From IMG/VR virus record IMGVR_UViG_3300046616_000463, positions 1 through 27,067 of that record: a DNA stretch of 27,067 nucleotides; one strand, 5' to 3'. The notes beneath the pieces are model-generated. The model did not search any database, was not told the origin of the DNA, and saw only the letters and a list, made by a program, of their open reading frames with translations. Numbering within the stretch: position 1 is the stretch's first letter; each line of letters opens with the position of its first letter. This document shows, piece after piece, positions 4,162-17,759 of this stretch. A program made the translations under genes and the position numbers. The DNA comes from a virus.

Positions 4162-4455
4162 ATGAGGTACGGACCTGAGTCGATTCGACACCTCTTCGGG
4201 TTCCATCCGGGAACAGGCGTGACGGCTCCTCGACACGAGCGAGTTCGTGAGGCGTACATCGCCTTTGGTGACTTCCTGGACGGCGTTCTTCAGGATGGTC
4301 CATCCAAGGATGAAGCCATCAAGCGTCTGAAAGAGTCGGCCATGTGGGCCAATTTCGGCATCTCCGAGCTGGCACCCGTCGAGAAGCAGAAGAACTACCT
4401 TCTGACCATGCCGAATGACCCCAATCCGATTCCTCTGACCAATTTCGATCAGTAA
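4162..4455 (+). CDS. Acb2/Tad1-hairpin-like protein (candidate cyclic-nucleotide sponge)
   Basis: A 97-residue protein; GAGGAG at 4151-4156 precedes ATG 4162. The pattern is IRHLFGFHP (residues 8-16), RHERVREAYIAFGDFL (24-39), then SKDEAIKRLKESAMWANFGIS (48-68). This matches the layout of Acb2 (T4 Vs.4 type) proteins: F-x-[FY]-H-P near the start, H-x-x-[VI]-R opening helix 1, and a charged A-x-x-x-L-x-E-x-x-[MF]-WAN helix forming the helical hairpin also present in Tad1. Those proteins bind cyclic nucleotides and block CBASS or Thoeris signalling. Here the usual KLEE is RLKE and the IAR after WANxx is ISE, so the homologue is divergent. The C-terminal 25 residues are a proline/asparagine tail. 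Family call is from memory of the motif pattern; function is inference. Confidence 0.55.
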   Translation: MRYGPESIRHLFGFHPGTGVTAPRHERVREAYIAFGDFLDGVLQDGPSKDEAIKRLKESAMWANFGISELAPVEKQKNYLLTMPNDPNPIPLTNFDQ

Positions 4456-4512
4456 CACTGATCTCCCCCGTCAAAATGATAGTCCGTAACGAGCGGCATA
4501 AGGAGGATTTCG

Positions 4513-5985
4513 ATGAGTTTCCCGCCTTCGTTGACAACACGAACGGTCCATGGCCGTTTCGTTACGTACCCTGACGGTAAACCCGCCAAGGGAACAGCGC
4601 GAATTGTCCTGGATTCCTACATGCAAGGTCCCACGGATGATGCTTTCGTCGCGCCTTTCGATTTGATGATCCCTTTCGATGCGAATGGTGAGATCACTCT
4701 GATTCTTCCCGCTAACGACGACCCTCAATGGTCGGCGTCTAGCTACCGGATTATCGTTTCGTCAGAGGGTGACAAAGAACCTCTTCGGCGAAGGCTTGTT
4801 GTCCCCTATCAGGGAACGGGTATCGTCGATCTCGCGGACGTGCTCAACGTTCCCGACCCGCCAAAGCCTATGACGTCATTCGTTCTGTTGGCCTCCAAAG
4901 GTGTGGCCGGAGGCGTGGCATCACTGGACAACACAGGAAGAGTCCCCGCAAGTCAGCTACCTTCGAGTAGTGGTGGATCTCTTTCGTGGTTGGATCTGAC
5001 CGACAAACCGTCGACGTTTCCTCCGTCATCGCACACCCATGTCATGTCGGATGTCACCGGTCTCGATTCGGTTCTCTCTTCCAAAGCTGATCTAGTAGGC
5101 GGCGTTCTCCCGACATCACAGCTCCCTGCTCTTGCTGTCGTCGATTTTCTGGGATCTGTTTCTGTCGGACCAGCAATGCTGGCTCTCACGGGACAGAAGG
5201 GCGACTGGTGTATCCGTACGGATCTTGGGCAAGTCTTCGTTATTACCGGTTCAGATCCCACGCAACTGAGCTCCTGGACCGCTATGCCTCTCGGGCCAGT
5301 TCAGGTCCAGTCGGTCAACGGTCAGACGGGAACCGTCGTTCTCGCCAAGGGCGATGTTGGTTTGGGAAACGTCGACAACACCAGCGACGCCAACAAGCCG
5401 GTCAGCACCGCGCAGCAGACCGCCCTGAATCTGAAAGCCAACCTCGCGTCCCCAACGTTTACTGGGACCGTATCCGGCGTCACCGCCGCGATGGTGGGAC
5501 TTGGTAACATCGACAACACGTCTGATGCCAACAAACCAGTGAGTACTGCCCAGCAGACTGCCTTGAACCTTAAGGCGAATCTGGCTAGTCCCACGTTTAC
5601 GGGAACAGTCTCCGGTATTTCCAAGTCGATGGTCGGTTTGGGAAACGTTGACAACACTGCCGACTCTGCGAAGAGTTTCACGGCTTCGCAGATTTCCGAT
5701 TCGACAACGACAGGTCGCTCAGTTGTCACCGCTGCAAATGCTGCGGCAGCGCGATCGGCTATTGGTGCTGGGACATCGGATCTCGCTCTTGGGAGCAGTA
5801 GCACCACGGCACTCGCTGGCGATTCGTTGACGACCCACGTTGCGGCATCTGATCCGCACACTCAGTACGGTCGGATTTTCACGTGGAACGGTTCGGCGTA
5901 CGTGGTCAGTACGACTGCTGACATTTACATTGGTCCCGGCGATCCAGGTTCGATCGACGGTTTGTGGATCGATTCAGACGCATGA
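4513..5985 (+). CDS. tail fibre / minor tail protein with 46-residue repeats
   Basis: A 490-residue protein with AAGGAGGA at 4500-4507. Residues 1-110 form a beta-rich N-terminal domain (VHGRFVTYPDGKPAKGTARIVL), probably the virion anchor. Then follow a linker with LDNTGRVPASQLPSS, HTHVMSDVTGL and SSKADLVGGVLPTSQLP fibre motifs, and a SVNGQTGTVVL segment. Two full and one partial repeats begin VGLGN[VI]DNT at residues 282, 328 and 374, a classic phage fibre repeat. The end carries HVAASDPHTQYGR and IYIGPGDPG near the C-terminus. It is likely a trimeric fibre recognising the host surface. Its stop overlaps the next start (ATGA). Position ahead of the head genes is unusual for a fibre. Confidence 0.8.
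   Translation: MSFPPSLTTRTVHGRFVTYPDGKPAKGTARIVLDSYMQGPTDDAFVAPFDLMIPFDANGEITLILPANDDPQWSASSYRIIVSSEGDKEPLRRRLVVPYQGTGIVDLADVLNVPDPPKPMTSFVLLASKGVAGGVASLDNTGRVPASQLPSSSGGSLSWLDLTDKPSTFPPSSHTHVMSDVTGLDSVLSSKADLVGGVLPTSQLPALAVVDFLGSVSVGPAMLALTGQKGDWCIRTDLGQVFVITGSDPTQLSSWTAMPLGPVQVQSVNGQTGTVVLAKGDVGLGNVDNTSDANKPVSTAQQTALNLKANLASPTFTGTVSGVTAAMVGLGNIDNTSDANKPVSTAQQTALNLKANLASPTFTGTVSGISKSMVGLGNVDNTADSAKSFTASQISDSTTTGRSVVTAANAAAARSAIGAGTSDLALGSSSTTALAGDSLTTHVAASDPHTQYGRIFTWNGSAYVVSTTADIYIGPGDPGSIDGLWIDSDA
5356..5679 (+). repeat. in-frame 46-codon fibre repeats (2 full + 1 partial)
   Basis: Repeat units start at 5356, 5494 and 5632, spaced exactly 138 bp. The first two units are nearly identical as protein (VGLGN[VI]DNTSDANKPVSTAQ onward) but differ at many third codon positions. 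The third shares only its first part (VGLGNVDNT). Confidence 0.85.
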
Positions 5986-8999: not shown

Positions 9000-10742
9000 A
9001 TGACGCTGTCGAACACGGCTACGCCTTATTACTATGGTCAGTTCCGTGACGCGGTAATTCGTGGCGAAATTCCTGTGAATCGGGAAATTTCGTTGGAGAT
9101 GAATCGCATCGATACTCTCATCGCCAACCCCAACTACTATTACGATGACGAGGCGATCAACGGTTTCATTCTCTACTGTGAGAATGAACTGACGCTGACT
9201 GACGGTAGTGACTTGCGTCTTTTGCCGTCATTCAAATTGTGGGCAGAACAGATCTTCGGTTGGTATCATTTCATCGAACGAAGCGTTTACGTTCCCGATG
9301 AGGACAACCACGGTGGTCAATACATCACGAAGATCATCAAGAAGCGACTGACCGTCAAGCAATACCTCATTGTCGCCCGAGGTGCTGCTAAATCGGTGTA
9401 TGAATCGTGCATTCAGAGTTACTTTCTGAATGTGGATACACACACCACGCATCAAATTACCACCGCGCCGACGATGAAACAGGCCGAAGAGGTCATGTCA
9501 CCGATCCGAACAGCTATCACGAGAAGTCGCGGGCCACTGTTCAAGTTCCTGACCGATGGTTCGTTGCAGAACACAACCGGATCAAAGGCGAATCGTGTTA
9601 AGCTCGCTGCTACGAAGAAGGGCATTGAGAACTTCTTGACCGGTTCTCTTCTCGAGATTCGACCTATGTCCATCAATAAGCTACAGGGACTACGACCGAA
9701 AACGTCTACGATCGACGAATGGTTGTCTGGGGATCTTCGAGAAGACGTCATTGGCGCCATTGAACAAGGCGCTTCCAAGCTCGACGACTATTTGATCGTT
9801 GCCGTCAGCTCGGAAGGAACTGTTCGAAACGGTTCTGGCGATACCGTCAAAATGGAACTAGCCACCATCCTTCGTGGAGAGTACCAGGCCCCTCACATTT
9901 CTATCTGGCACTACAAGCTGGATGAAATCGAGGAAGTAAGCGATCCTCGCATGTGGCCTAAAGCCAATCCGAACCTGGGGAAAACAGTCACCTACGATGT
10001 TTACCAACAGGATGTCGAGAGAGCTGAGAAAGCTCCCGCCTCTCGCAATGACATCCTCGCCAAGAGGTTCGGCATTCCCATGGAGGGTTATACGTACTTC
10101 TTCACGTACGAAGAAACCACTCCTTTCCGTCGTCGTCATTTCGATGGGATGGTCTGTTCTCTGGGAGCAGACCTTTCGCAGGGCGATGACTTCTGTGCTT
10201 TCACCTTCTTGTTCCCCGTTCGCACCGGATTCGGCATTAAGACTCGTTCCTACATCACGAGTCTGACATTGGCAAAACTTCCTGGAGCCATGCGGCAAAA
10301 GTACGAAGAATTCATCAATGAGGGTAGTCTTCATGTTCTTGAAGGCGCTGTTCTCGACATGATGGATGTGTATGACGATCTCGATCGTCATATCCAAATG
10401 CATGAATACGACATTCGCGCCTTTGGTTACGACCCGTACAATGCCAAAGAATTCGTCACACGTTGGGAACAGGAAAACGGGCCGTTCGGTATCGAGAAAG
10501 TGATCCAGGGAGCAAGAACCGAATCGGTTCCTCTTGGTGAATTGAAGATCCTTGCTGGCGAACGTCAGCTTATCTTTGACGAAGATCTCATGCAATTCGC
10601 CATGGGTAATGCGATCACTCTGGAAGACACGAACGGTAACCGCAAGCTTCTGAAAGCCCGCTACCAAGACAAGATCGACAACGTGTCTGCCCTGTTGGAT
10701 GCTTATGTCGCTTACAAGCTCAATAAGGAGGCGTTCGAATGA
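9000..10742 (+). CDS. terminase large subunit
   Basis: A 580-residue ATPase/nuclease that translocates DNA into the prohead and cuts it; AGAGGAGG at 8985-8992 precedes ATG 9000. The ATPase domain has a Walker A-like ARGAAKS (126-132), where Ala replaces the more usual Gly before the Lys, and Walker B TSTIDEW (235-241, Asp239-Glu240). The RNase H-like nuclease domain has acidic residues at GADLSQGDD (Asp391), FGYDPY (Asp478) and DKIDNVSALLDA (Asp560 or Asp567). Architecture and length fit the Terminase_1 (HK97-like) family. It overlaps the next gene by ATGA and is surrounded by GIKGM-motif genes. Confidence 0.93.
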   Translation: MTLSNTATPYYYGQFRDAVIRGEIPVNREISLEMNRIDTLIANPNYYYDDEAINGFILYCENELTLTDGSDLRLLPSFKLWAEQIFGWYHFIERSVYVPDEDNHGGQYITKIIKKRLTVKQYLIVARGAAKSVYESCIQSYFLNVDTHTTHQITTAPTMKQAEEVMSPIRTAITRSRGPLFKFLTDGSLQNTTGSKANRVKLAATKKGIENFLTGSLLEIRPMSINKLQGLRPKTSTIDEWLSGDLREDVIGAIEQGASKLDDYLIVAVSSEGTVRNGSGDTVKMELATILRGEYQAPHISIWHYKLDEIEEVSDPRMWPKANPNLGKTVTYDVYQQDVERAEKAPASRNDILAKRFGIPMEGYTYFFTYEETTPFRRRHFDGMVCSLGADLSQGDDFCAFTFLFPVRTGFGIKTRSYITSLTLAKLPGAMRQKYEEFINEGSLHVLEGAVLDMMDVYDDLDRHIQMHEYDIRAFGYDPYNAKEFVTRWEQENGPFGIEKVIQGARTESVPLGELKILAGERQLIFDEDLMQFAMGNAITLEDTNGNRKLLKARYQDKIDNVSALLDAYVAYKLNKEAFE

Positions 10743-11481: not shown

Positions 11482-12804
11482 ATGCCATTCGTTGACCGAA
11501 TCAAGCATGCGTGGAACGCGTTCCTAGGACTTGAAGTTCGGAACGATTTCGACTTTAGCCGTGGTCCTATGACATATGGACCGACTCGACCCGACCGAGC
11601 GCGATTGATGTTCGGCAACGAACGTTCGATCATCTCCTCGATCTACACTCGTCTGGGGATTGATGCCGCGGCGATCGACATTTTCCACGTTCGTTTGGAC
11701 GATAAGAAGCGTTACGCTGGCGATGTCGATAGTGGGTTGAATAATTGCCTTACTATCGAAGCCAACATCGACCAAGGAGCTCGGGCATTTCGTCAGGATA
11801 TCGCGATGACGATGTTTGACAAGGGTGCTATCGCTATCGTCCCCGTGGATACGACGATCGACCCGAACGCTTCGGGAGCCTTCGACATCAAAACCATGCG
11901 TGTCGGTCACATTACGGGATGGCATCCCCAGCACGTTGTGGTTGAGGTATACAACGAGGTCAAGGGTGTTCGCCAAGAGGTCACGCTCGACAAGAAATTT
12001 GTTGCTATTGTCGAGAATCCTCTCTATTCGGTAATGAATGAGCCGAATTCGACTCTTCAGCGTCTGATCCGCAAGCTAAGCTTGTTGGACTCGATGGACG
12101 AAATGGCGAGTTCAGGAAAGCTGGACATGATCATCCAGCTTCCTTACACCATTAAGTCTGATGCTCGTCGAGTCGACGCTGAACGTCGACGATCTGAAAT
12201 CGAGACACAGCTTCGAGGAAGCAAGTATGGTATTGCGTATACCGACGGTACGGAGAAGATCACTCAACTCAACCGTCCGGTGGAGAATACCCTCCTGAAG
12301 CAAATCGAGTGGCTCACGGGTCAGCTGTATTCTCAACTTGGTCTTACGCCCGAAGTGATGAATGGTACCGCCGACGAAGCGACCATGAAGAATTATCACA
12401 ATCGGACCACCGAACCGATTGTGGCTGCGATCGTCGAAGAGATGAGGCGTAAATTCCTCACCAAGACAGCTCGATCGCAAGGTCAATCGATCATGGCGTT
12501 CCGTGACCCGTTCAAGTTGGTCCCGATCAGCGACATCGCAGAGATTGCTGACAAACTCACTCGAAACGAAATTGTCAGCGCCAATGAGATCCGCGGATTC
12601 ATGGGTATCAAGCCTTCCACAGACCCCAAGGCAGATCAGTTGGTGAACAGCAACATGCCTGAACCCAATCAGCTGCCCAAGTCCAACGTTCCGACGATTG
12701 ATGGGGAAGTGGTCGATCGCAACGCTGCGACATCGGAGTTGTCTGCGAACAATAGACGACAAATCACGGGCTCCGTCGGAGCCAGTACATCCAATACGAG
12801 GTAA
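11482..12804 (+). CDS. portal protein
   Basis: A 440-residue phage portal (HK97/Phage_portal family), the dodecameric ring at the packaging vertex. Recognisable parts are the N-terminal SIISSIYTRLGIDAAAIDIFHV, a central KLSLLDSMDEMASSGKLDMIIQLPY region, KYGIAYTDGTEKITQLNRPVEN, and the crown-proximal QIEWLTGQLYSQLGLTPEVMNGTADEATM followed by VAAIVEEMRRKFLTKTAR. The last 50 residues (NQLPKSNVPTIDGE and a Ser/Asn-rich tail) look disordered. It follows the two GIKGM-motif genes and precedes the protease-capsid gene, the standard head order. Confidence 0.9.
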   Translation: MPFVDRIKHAWNAFLGLEVRNDFDFSRGPMTYGPTRPDRARLMFGNERSIISSIYTRLGIDAAAIDIFHVRLDDKKRYAGDVDSGLNNCLTIEANIDQGARAFRQDIAMTMFDKGAIAIVPVDTTIDPNASGAFDIKTMRVGHITGWHPQHVVVEVYNEVKGVRQEVTLDKKFVAIVENPLYSVMNEPNSTLQRLIRKLSLLDSMDEMASSGKLDMIIQLPYTIKSDARRVDAERRRSEIETQLRGSKYGIAYTDGTEKITQLNRPVENTLLKQIEWLTGQLYSQLGLTPEVMNGTADEATMKNYHNRTTEPIVAAIVEEMRRKFLTKTARSQGQSIMAFRDPFKLVPISDIAEIADKLTRNEIVSANEIRGFMGIKPSTDPKADQLVNSNMPEPNQLPKSNVPTIDGEVVDRNAATSELSANNRRQITGSVGASTSNTR

Positions 12805-12822
12805 GAGAGGAGAACGGTCAAA

Positions 12823-14880
12823 ATGGAACCCGATTTCGGCGGGTATGCCACTAAGGCTGGTCTCAGGTGCTCCGACGGACGAGTGATCAAGGCCGAAGCC
12901 TTCCAGCACATGGACGGCAAGAAGGTCCCGCTCGTCTACCAGCACGGGCACAACGCCCTGGACAACGTTCTAGGTCACGTCATGCTCGAGGCCCGCGACG
13001 ACGGCATGTACAGCTACGGTTTCTTCAACGACACGAAGAACGGCAAGCTGGCCAAGACCTCGGTCCAGCACGGCGATCTCGACTCACTGTCGATCTGGGC
13101 GAACGGGTTGAAGGAGATCAACAAGAACGTCTCGCACGGCAACATCCGCGAGGTCAGTCTCGTTCTCTCCGGTGCCAATCCCGGCGCCAAGATCGACTAC
13201 GTCCGCATTCAGCACGGTGACGATCCCGACGACGTCACGGAGCTCGCGGATGAGGCCATCATTCACACCGGAGAGTCGATCCTCGTTCTTCCCGAGAAGA
13301 CCGAGACCGTCGTCGAGACCAAGGAGGATGACGCGAAGAAGACCGAGACTGTCGAGACCAAGGACGAGGTCCAGCACGCCGACAACCAGGACATGAGCGT
13401 TCAGGACGTGTTCGACTCCATGACCGACCAGCAGAAGCAGGTCACCGAATATCTGATCGGCGCGGCCCTCGAAGAAGCCGCGAGTTCCACGAACGACGGC
13501 GCCGCCGAACACTCCGACAACGATGAGGGCGGCATCGCCCACCAGGAAGGAAACGACGACATGACTCGCAACCTCTTCGAGTCGCAGCAGGCCGGCGCCA
13601 CCGGCACGGCGACCGACAAGCAGCACACGCTGTCCCACAGCGATCTGGAGGGTATCTTCGAGCAGGGCCGGAGGCTCGGCTCGCTCAAGGCGGCCGTGGA
13701 GCAGTACGCCGAGGCGCACCTCGAGCACGGTATCAGCAACATCGACATCCTGTTCCCCGACGCCAAGAACATCACCGGCGCTCCGGAGCTGGACAAGCGG
13801 CGTACCGAGTGGGTCGCGTCGGTCCTCAACAGCACCCGCCACACCCCGTTCTCTCGGATCAAGACCTTCGCCGCGGACCTGACGCAGGACCAGGCCCGTG
13901 CCAAGGGCTACATCAAGGGCAACTACAAGCTCGAGGAATGGTTCGGCGTCACGAAGCGCACCACGACGCCGACCACGATCTACAAGAAGCAGAAGCTCGA
14001 GCGCGACGACATGCTGGACATCACCGACTTCGACATCGTCGCCTTCCTCAAGGCGGAGATGCGGCTCATGACCGAGGAGGAGGTCGCGCGAGCGATCCTC
14101 ATCGGCGATGGTCGGGACGTCTCGGCGGAGGACAAGGTCAAGGACCCGATGGGCGCCTCGGACGGTGCCGGCATCCGGTCCGTGCTGAACGACCACGAGT
14201 ACTTCGTGACCACGCTGAACGTGAACGTCGACGACGCCAACTCGTCCTACGAGGAGGTTGTGGACGCCGTCATGGACGGCATGGAGTTCTACAAGGGGAC
14301 CGGTTCCCCGACCTTCTACACCACGGTCCCGGAGCTCAACAAGTTCCTCAAGGCCCGCGACGGCATGCAGCGGCGCATCTACGCCAACAAGGCCGAGGTG
14401 GCTCAGGCGCTGGGTGTGCAGGACATCGTCACCGTGGAGCCGATGAAGGAGGTCTCGGGTCTGGTCGGCATCATCGTCAACCTCGGGGACTACAACGTCG
14501 GCACCGACCGTGGCGGCGAACTCACGATGTTCGACGACTTCGACATCGACTACAACCAGCAGAAGTACCTGCTGGAGACCCGCCTGTCGGGCGCTCTGAT
14601 CCGGCCGAAGACCGCCCTGGTCATCCGCAAGACCGGTGCGTCCAACGTGCTCGCGGTGCCGCTGAAGCCGGCGTTCGTGGCGTCCACGGGTGTCGTGACG
14701 ATCCCGACCGTCACCGGCGTCGTCTACAAGGGTGCCGACGGTACGACCACGCTGACCGCGGGTGCGCAGACCGCCCTGGCGGCCGGCGCGAGCACCACCG
14801 TCTACGCTGTCCCGGCGTCCGGCTACTACTTCGCCAACACGGTGGACGACTCGTGGCCGTTCACGCGTAACCCGGCCTGA
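12823..14880 (+). CDS. prohead protease-scaffold-major capsid fusion
   Basis: A single 685-residue ORF (GAGGAG upstream). Residues 20-130 are a U35-type prohead protease: VYQHGHN (His41/43), LGHVMLEARDDG, SLSIWANG (Ser90 candidate) and the signature REVSLVLSGANPGAKIDYV. Residues 140-245 are acidic, Glu/Lys-rich and low-complexity, like a delta/scaffold domain. Residues 247-620 are an HK97-fold capsid protein (EWFGVTKRTTTPTTIY, then DITDFDIVAFLKAEMRLMTEEE, AILIGDGR, then DFDIDYNQQKYLLETRLSGALIRPKTAL). Residues about 620-685 form an Ig-like tail domain shared with the major tail protein. An in-frame ATG at 13561 with its own ribosome site could yield free capsid protein. Codons are heavily GC-ending, fitting a very abundant protein. 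Confidence 0.88.
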   Translation: MEPDFGGYATKAGLRCSDGRVIKAEAFQHMDGKKVPLVYQHGHNALDNVLGHVMLEARDDGMYSYGFFNDTKNGKLAKTSVQHGDLDSLSIWANGLKEINKNVSHGNIREVSLVLSGANPGAKIDYVRIQHGDDPDDVTELADEAIIHTGESILVLPEKTETVVETKEDDAKKTETVETKDEVQHADNQDMSVQDVFDSMTDQQKQVTEYLIGAALEEAASSTNDGAAEHSDNDEGGIAHQEGNDDMTRNLFESQQAGATGTATDKQHTLSHSDLEGIFEQGRRLGSLKAAVEQYAEAHLEHGISNIDILFPDAKNITGAPELDKRRTEWVASVLNSTRHTPFSRIKTFAADLTQDQARAKGYIKGNYKLEEWFGVTKRTTTPTTIYKKQKLERDDMLDITDFDIVAFLKAEMRLMTEEEVARAILIGDGRDVSAEDKVKDPMGASDGAGIRSVLNDHEYFVTTLNVNVDDANSSYEEVVDAVMDGMEFYKGTGSPTFYTTVPELNKFLKARDGMQRRIYANKAEVAQALGVQDIVTVEPMKEVSGLVGIIVNLGDYNVGTDRGGELTMFDDFDIDYNQQKYLLETRLSGALIRPKTALVIRKTGASNVLAVPLKPAFVASTGVVTIPTVTGVVYKGADGTTTLTAGAQTALAAGASTTVYAVPASGYYFANTVDDSWPFTRNPA
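13545..13563 (+). promoter_or_regulatory. internal ribosome-binding site and start for free major capsid protein
   Basis: GGAAGGA at 13545-13551 is nine bases ahead of ATG 13561, which is in frame with the protease-capsid ORF. The predicted product (MTRNLFESQQ onward, 439 residues) has the length and N-terminus of an ordinary HK97-type capsid protein. Whether it is used is inference. Confidence 0.55.
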
Positions 14881-15513: not shown

Positions 15514-16395
15514 ATGACCAAGCTCCTTTGGGATCAGGTCGGCGAGCGGACCTACGAGACCGGTGTCGACCACGGCGTTCTGTACCCCGTCAACACCACT
15601 ACCGGTGCCTACGACTTCGGTGTGGCGTGGAACGGTTTGGTGACCCTGACCGAGTCGCCGTCGGGCGCGGAGGCCAATGCCCAGTACGCCGACAACATCA
15701 AGTACCTCAATCTGACCAGTGCCGAGGAGTTCGGCGGCACCATCGAGGCTTTCACCTACCCGATCGAGTTCGCGGAGTGCGACGGCTCGGCAGTGGTGAA
15801 CGGCGGCGTTTCCATCGGTCAGCAGACTCGACGCGTCTTCGGTCTTTGCTACCGGAGCCGTCTGGGCAACGACCTCGAGGGTAACGACCACGGCTACAAG
15901 CTGCACCTGGTGTACGGCGCCACCGCGGCGCCGTCGGAGCGGGCGTACGGCACGATCAACGACTCGCCGGAGCCGATCACATTCAGCTGGGAGTTCTCCA
16001 CCTACCCGTTGGGGGTTGGCACCATCAGCGGTGTCACCTACAAGCCGACGTCCACTCTGGTCATCGACTCCACCCTGGTGGACGCCACCGCGCTCGCGGC
16101 GCTCGAGGACCAGCTGTACGGGACCGTCGGCACCGACCCGGCCCTGCCGCTCCCGGCCGCCGTCATCGCCATCTTCGCCGGCACGATCACGGTGGCGACG
16201 CCGACCGCGCCGACGTACAACTCGACCACCAAGGTCATCACCATCCCGACCGTCACCGGTGTCGTCTACAAGATCAACGGTGTCACCAAGACCGGCACCG
16301 TGACCATCACCGAGGACACGGTCGTCAACGCGGTTCCGGCCGCCGGCTACCGCTTCCCCGCGGTCACCGACGACGACTGGTTCTTCGACTTCTAG
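15514..16395 (+). CDS. major tail protein 1 with C-terminal Ig-like domain
   Basis: A 293-residue tail-tube protein (GAGGA upstream of ATG 15514). The tube domain spans about residues 1-225: RTYETGVDHGVLYP, a NGLVTLTESPSGAE segment, YLNLTSAEEFGGTIEAFTYP, EFAECDGS, LGNDLEGNDHGYKLHLVYG and a LYGT segment. Residues about 232-293 are an Ig-like domain (VITIPTVTGVVYK through PAAGYRFPAV) that closely matches the capsid C-terminus. GC-ending codon bias is as strong as in the capsid gene, fitting hundreds of copies per virion. It is paralogous to the product at 16971-17759. I take this copy as the main tube subunit. Confidence 0.88.
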   Translation: MTKLLWDQVGERTYETGVDHGVLYPVNTTTGAYDFGVAWNGLVTLTESPSGAEANAQYADNIKYLNLTSAEEFGGTIEAFTYPIEFAECDGSAVVNGGVSIGQQTRRVFGLCYRSRLGNDLEGNDHGYKLHLVYGATAAPSERAYGTINDSPEPITFSWEFSTYPLGVGTISGVTYKPTSTLVIDSTLVDATALAALEDQLYGTVGTDPALPLPAAVIAIFAGTITVATPTAPTYNSTTKVITIPTVTGVVYKINGVTKTGTVTITEDTVVNAVPAAGYRFPAVTDDDWFFDF

Positions 16396-16970: not shown

Positions 16971-17759
16971 ATGTCACGTATAACATGGAACGCCGCCGGC
17001 TCTCGCTTCTATGAGGCTGGAGTTGATCGAGGCGTTTTGTACATCGGTACCGCTGCAGGCATACCCTGGGTGGGACTGATTTCTGTCGATGAGAACCCGT
17101 CGGGTGGCGAGGCGAAAGCCTATTACATCGACGGTGAGAAATACCTGAACCTGTCGAGTACTGAGGAATTCGAAGCCACCATCAAAGCTTACACCTATCC
17201 CGTAGAGTTTGCGGAATGCGATGGATCTTCTCGTGTTCGGGTGGGATTGTTCTTCGGTCAGCAAGGCCGGACAAACTTCGGTTTCTCGTACCGCACTAAG
17301 GTCGGTAATGATCTCGAGGGTGTTGACCACGGCTACAAGTTGCATCTAGTGTACAACGCCTTGGCAACTCCGTCGTCCAAATCCGTCGCAACGTTCGGTG
17401 ATTCTCCCGAGGCTTCTGATTTCAGTTGGAATCTCACCACGAAGTCACGAAAAGTATCGGGATATCGATCAACCGCGCACGTTGTTGTGGATTCTCGGTA
17501 TACGCACCCGGTGACGTTGACCGCCATCGAAGATCTTCTCTATGGGACCGACAGTGGAATTTCTCGACTTCCCACTCCCGAAGAGCTTGTCACTATCTTC
17601 GATATTCCTGTGGTCTTCCAGGTCACGGATAACGGCGATGACACGTTCACCGTTGCCGGCCCTGGAGATACTGTTCTGGACATCGGTCTGGGCAAATTCG
17701 TCATCGATTATTCCACGGTAGTGGATAACGGCGATGACACGTTCACTATTTCCGCTTAG
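16971..17759 (+). CDS. major tail protein 2 (paralogue)
   Basis: A 262-residue paralogue of the protein at 15514-16395, sharing SRFYEAGVDRGVLY, LISVDENPSGGEAKAYY, KYLNLSSTEEFEATIKAYTYPVEFAECDGS, FSYRTKVGNDLEGVDHGYKLHLVYN and a LLYGTDSGISRLPTPEE segment. It lacks the Ig-like domain; its end instead has two copies of DNGDDTFT, encoded by an exact 24-bp repeat. Third-position GC bias is weaker than in copy 1, suggesting lower expression. Possible roles are a minor tube ring, a tail-tip or collar subunit, or a spare variant. ATG 16971 is one base after the chaperone stop. Confidence 0.8.
   Translation: MSRITWNAAGSRFYEAGVDRGVLYIGTAAGIPWVGLISVDENPSGGEAKAYYIDGEKYLNLSSTEEFEATIKAYTYPVEFAECDGSSRVRVGLFFGQQGRTNFGFSYRTKVGNDLEGVDHGYKLHLVYNALATPSSKSVATFGDSPEASDFSWNLTTKSRKVSGYRSTAHVVVDSRYTHPVTLTAIEDLLYGTDSGISRLPTPEELVTIFDIPVVFQVTDNGDDTFTVAGPGDTVLDIGLGKFVIDYSTVVDNGDDTFTISA
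17627..17746 (+). repeat. exact 24-bp direct repeat in major tail protein 2
   Basis: The same 24 bases occur at 17627-17650 and 17723-17746, in the same frame, 96 bp apart, each encoding DNGDDTFT. Confidence 0.85.

Follow-up and report, generated by a model that had tools for sequence, protein, structure and literature searches.

A conserved in-frame start site within a phage protease-capsid fusion gene suggests separate initiation of a capsid precursor

The fusion of a prohead protease and a major capsid protein in a single gene is known and not new in itself, being recorded as 'major capsid and protease fusion' in hundreds of phages. It was noted in 2017 for the Arthrobacter clusters AM, AU and AN in a paper that also mentions the scaffold-protease fusion of lambda (PMC5513430). 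The known fusions of Streptomyces Bingvirus, Arthrobacter AM/AU, Gordonia DJ-type and Lactococcus P078/CHPC971 phages are the same gene, with the same domain order, as the fusion studied here and share about 34–67% identity with it over most of its length. The records of these fusions that we examined treat the product as a single protein without an annotated internal start, and all 13 annotated relatives examined carry a single CDS. In the literature searched, outside which most subscription papers fell and in which many key papers were not open, we found neither a description of an internal start in such fusions nor anything relevant on the proteomics of Lactococcus 1706-like, Rhodococcus and Arthrobacter relatives. 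In HK97 proheads, about 60 protease subunits accompany about 415 of capsid, and the proheads of D3 have about 90 protease copies (PMC12749128). Since capsid greatly outnumbers protease in proheads of this kind, a fusion supplying the two strictly 1:1 would be out of the ordinary, and the annotation of a single protein leaves it unexplained how these hundreds of phages avoid a 1:1 supply of protease. A nested capsid start would answer this question.

The window analysed here is the whole 27,067-nt stretch of the IMG/VR record IMGVR_UViG_3300046616_000463. Profile matches identified TerL (9000–10742), portal (11482–12804) and a major tail-type protein (15514–16395), and the gene order of terminase, portal, fusion, then connector and tail genes is present in the window and alike in relatives. 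The claim of the first-pass annotation that no stop separates a U35 protease, an acidic linker and a capsid domain was borne out by a stop-free frame of 685 codons on the plus strand (12823–14880; 74.7 kDa), which is preceded by the Shine-Dalgarno-like sequence AGAGGAG at 12806–12812. The phrog_3270 match spans the whole fusion protein (E 8e-237), and 244 phage records contain matches to the ORF. With its N-terminal S78 domain, an HK97-fold capsid in the same ORF and this gene order, the locus belongs to the phrog_3270-type fusions.

The protease domain covers residues 1–130 (12823–13212, pLDDT mostly 81–93), and Pfam PF04586 (Peptidase_S78, formerly U35) was matched above its cut-off at residues 19–127, with an E-value of 2e-4 in the full-length scan that improved to 1.5e-5 when the scan was limited to residues 1–246. 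Alignment columns revealed the invariant residues His41/His43, Ser90 and Glu110 as candidate active-site residues. The following linker (residues 131–246, 13213–13560) is mostly disordered, hypervariable in length and strongly acidic (34 D+E vs 6 K+R, pI 4.05), and LxH[SAG][DE] motifs recur in it at H131, H185 and H230. It includes a conserved helical segment (residues 193–221, 13399–13485), restricted to the long product, which may act as a scaffold and is thus a candidate mini-scaffold. In Arthrobacter phage Gordon, this helix occurs in three tandem copies at fusion residues of about 165–320, with another EGGNM start-like site (HTEGGNM) between the copies.

The remainder of the protein consists of an HK97-fold capsid domain (residues 303–606, 13729–14640) and a C-terminal add-on domain (residues 607–685, 14641–14877) that is common to the tail protein encoded at 15514–16395. 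The capsid add-on (14605–14862) and the tail-protein C-terminus (16147–16386) are 46% identical, so that one domain is found on both a head and a tail protein. This tail protein is paralogous to a second major-tail-type protein (16971–17759; 48% identity, both phrog_2645, one gene between them), which is without the add-on domain. An apparent insertion in one relative (L044) proved to be an artefact, as its contig begins within the gene, and what matched a second time was the shared tail-protein C-terminal domain. In Rhodococcus phage ReqiPepy6, the gene at 4297–5115 is annotated as 'head protein' where relatives have the major tail protein, and the capsid resides in the gene called prohead protease.

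Structure models were consistent with a capsid unit that begins within the fusion. The full-length model comprises a confident protease (about residues 1–152), the helix pair at 193–221, disorder at 222–268 and then the capsid; the putative internal start falls within the disordered stretch. A Pfam scan of the full-length protein missed the capsid domain, whereas a scan of residues 247–685 alone recovered a Phage_capsid match (E 3e-4, below the family cut-off). The capsid-only model from residue 247 (pLDDT 82, pTM 0.74) showed a complete HK97 fold, ahead of which lie a disordered N-terminus and two helices forming a short helical propeptide. Superposed on HK97 1ohg, the model gave a Z-score of 16.6 over 258 aligned residues (rmsd 4.3), with HK97 residues 104–383 aligned to precursor residues 55–359, that is, fusion residues 301–605.

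The first-pass annotation had also pointed to an in-frame ATG at 13561, preceded by GGAAGGA and opening a capsid protein of 439 residues. This ATG is indeed codon 247 (13561–13563), and GGAAGGA lies at 13545–13551, one of only two occurrences on the plus strand of the window; the internal Shine-Dalgarno (SD) sequence AGGAAGGA at 13544–13551 ends 9 nt before the ATG. Translation from this codon to 14880 would give a second product of 48.0 kDa. The open frame, the domains, the conservation of the start codon, the ribosome-binding site and the open mRNA were all obtained by computation. For the comparison, 183 genes from IMG/VR and annotated phages were used, after fragments beginning downstream of the internal start site had been left out; in seven genes where the automatic anchor failed, the site was placed by hand. 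Pseudomonas phage Hadban and Arthrobacter phage Adaia encode protease-capsid proteins that are near-identical over the part compared, a likeness that is odd for such distant hosts and possibly reflects a host or sample mix-up.

In the relatives, the linker always ends with Met, Val or Leu, with a conserved segment, typically (S/T/K)(R/H)NVF(D/E), within a few residues. The aligned codon was ATG in 149 genes, GTG in 30 and TTG in four, and no other codon was seen in any of the 183. Valine at this position is always encoded by GTG and never by GTC, GTT or GTA, and leucine, which occurs in Lactococcus phages, always by TTG, whereas GTG and TTG make up 18% of Val codons and 6.5% of Leu codons, respectively, in a background of 86 genes. 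A capsid tree of 161 sequences, built with the start-site columns excluded, shows 20 changes of the codon, all of them among ATG, GTG and TTG. In-frame NTG makes up 4.2% of all codons, and the chance that a stretch of seven codons contains one is 24%; because the start was looked for no farther than about seven codons from the conserved motif, this 24% is the null expectation per gene, and an NTG codon at the site in 183 of 183 relatives is far beyond chance. It counts against the two-start model that a recent Met-to-Val change gives GTG through mutation alone, so that the codon test is weaker where changes are young, but the lack of Ile, Thr, Lys, Arg and CTG-encoded Leu at the site is untouched by this argument.

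The nucleotides upstream of the codon are conserved as well. Among 114 non-redundant genes, 83% have an SD match of at least 5 nt to AAAGGAGGT upstream of the internal start, compared with 7% of 2986 other in-frame NTG codons. In the 77 actinophage relatives, the Glu preceding the start is encoded by GAA in 74 and the Gly by GGA in 59, where 27 and 10.8, respectively, were expected from each gene's own usage, so that the SD sequence is conserved as nucleotides through the rare codons GAA-GGA. The rumen and gut relatives keep the SD as AGGAGG or GGAGG while the encoded residues differ (EEDxx, EGGxx, MEDxx, FGGxx). The p-values for SD and codons are raw and ignore shared ancestry, and the figures are too large for shared ancestry alone. 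Within the 300 nt scanned in 91 genes, mRNA structure was weakest around the internal start, at 1.4 s.d. above the gene mean. In the window, the predicted energy at the start is −9.4 kcal/mol, compared with −17.1 kcal/mol on average, and only 3.7% of the gene's windows are less structured.

The idea of a maximised SD was dropped, since the hybridisation energy of the full anti-SD tail ranked the site first in just 23 of 95 genes, and a conserved moderate SD is the reading that we keep in its place. The synonymous GAG-GGN would pair better with the anti-SD than the conserved GAA-GGA, and it is avoided; what is constrained therefore appears to be a moderate site, or else its spacing. That the SD is not the strongest allowed by the amino acids was counted against the two-start model, and the avoidance of GAG-GGN suggests that initiation is tuned and not maximal, or that spacing is constrained. 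Dual initiation, proposed in the first-pass annotation, is strongly supported by this comparison across 183 relatives, through the retained start codon, SD, codon bias and weak mRNA structure.

Three other explanations were weighed against these data. The 685-aa polyprotein might be the sole product, with free capsid released purely by proteolysis and ATG 13561 serving as an ordinary Met codon. Such a reading agrees with the annotations examined, which all give one protein, and with a linker rich in motifs that resemble cleavage sites. However, it leaves unexplained the variation of the codon among ATG, GTG and TTG only, the conservation of the SD through rare codons, its retention under changing residues and the unstructured mRNA; moreover, protease and capsid would come in equal amounts. 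We consider it unlikely. The internal ribosome-binding site could also be a relic, now unused, of a capsid gene that was separate in an ancestor. Separate protease and capsid genes do occur in distant Streptococcus phage relatives, which makes fusion by stop loss plausible, but a relic would decay, whereas start codon and SD are both retained in relatives down to 35% capsid identity, and the synonymous choices at the site are contrary to the gene's own codon usage. This explanation seems very improbable.

It is also conceivable that the short product is made but has another role, such as an assembly regulator or a decoy, and is not the main capsid subunit. In favour of such a role are the moderate SD and a product ratio that is itself a prediction. 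Nevertheless, the short product is a complete HK97-fold capsid with a propeptide, and capsid far exceeds protease in HK97 and D3 proheads; we regard this role as improbable. By contrast, we hold it to be very probable that two in-frame starts yield a minor protease-scaffold-capsid fusion and a bulk capsid precursor, which co-assemble and are then trimmed.

The placement of putative cleavage sites fits this two-start model. The pattern [HQ][SAG][DEN] occurs 324 times in the linkers of 109 genes, compared with 80 in shuffles, and its recurrent form is [LIVA]-x-H-[SAG]-[DE]. In 72 genes, the density of LxH[SAG][DE] was 2.71 per 100 aa in the linker between protease and helix, compared with 0.01 in the capsid body. 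This motif placement suggests that the S78 protease cuts after the His of LxH[SAG]. Related motifs are found at H272 (LSH) and H302 (LEH) within the predicted propeptide (residues 247–302, 13561–13728), both of them conserved; the H302 stretch has one in 65 of the 72 genes, and H302 is shared by all 39 relatives in the alignment. The mature capsid chain of HK97 starts with residue 104, whose counterpart is precursor residue 55, or fusion residue 301, and the H302/G303 bond falls within one or two residues of the HK97 cut in the structure alignment. Because of this alignment and the invariance of H302, a cut at H302/G303 is preferred over H272/S273, which is less favoured as the mature N-terminus, though both may be cut. 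The first residue of the mature capsid is thus probably G303 (nt 13729) or one close to it, after a cut at LEH302/G303, and the product from 13561 would be a precursor with a 56-residue propeptide. As this product is probably trimmed, the N-terminus of the capsid in virions could differ from M247 even with initiation at 13561.

Taken together, initiation at 12823 would produce the 74.7-kDa protease-scaffold-capsid fusion as a minor product, and initiation at 13561 would produce the 48-kDa capsid precursor without protease as the bulk product. Two starts would therefore give minority fusion and bulk capsid, resolving the 1:1 protease:capsid problem. Sharing the capsid domain, the minority fusion subunits could join bulk capsid in assembly and bring the protease, and perhaps the scaffold helix at 193–221, covalently inside the prohead. 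There, both products would be trimmed by the protease, which would cut linker and propeptides, probably at [L/I/V/A]-x-H/[S/A/G] with H302/G303 as the last site, leaving a single uniform mature capsid protein. The making of both products, their ratio, their co-assembly and the cleavage sites are what we infer here, and the model makes the testable predictions of a 48-kDa precursor and of a mature N-terminus at or near G303. A nested capsid start would change the annotation of the whole gene family and would represent a compact means of fixing the stoichiometry of two assembly partners.

A similar arrangement is seen in the fusions of 14–18-kb siphophages (Arthrobacter AN, Microbacterium EE, RRH1, GMA5), which form another family, with AN and EE in phrog_2263. 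Like the window gene, they have one ORF with an ATG or GTG and an SD-like sequence at the boundary, but they show little or no sequence similarity to the window fusion and lack the LxH linker. In 14 of the 15 such fusions inspected, an ATG or GTG lies in frame where protease and capsid meet and leaves 319–413 aa; the exception is Gordonia phage Emperor, in which no such boundary start was found. The boundary start is preceded by AGGAGG, AGGAG, AAAGGA or AAGGA in eight of the 14, two of which are near-identical, and by weaker 4-nt SD matches in the other six. In the Streptococcus phages Javan457 and Javan400, protease and capsid are split genes, and a plausible simple history is that the fusion arose by stop loss with the capsid ribosome-binding site retained. 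Whether tailed-phage fusions generally yield two products, with an internal capsid start retained in families that are only distantly related or were fused independently and its moderate ribosome-binding site setting protease dosage, and with S78 here cutting LxH/[SAG] between every module, is a proposition that we judge to be evenly balanced.

In the C/Nu3 genes of lambda, an in-frame start inside the protease gene gives a shorter C-terminal product. The analogy to nested scaffold genes drawn in the first-pass annotation holds for the conserved in-frame internal start with its ribosome-binding site, but not for the identity of the product: the nested product of lambda is a scaffold and its capsid gene is separate, whereas the predicted nested product in the window is the capsid itself. 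The gp4/gp5 pair of HK97 resembles the window gene in its S78 protease, its HK97 fold and an N-terminal propeptide whose removal site aligns to within about 1–2 residues of the predicted one; it differs in being two separate genes and in that every HK97 capsid subunit carries a 102-residue scaffold domain.
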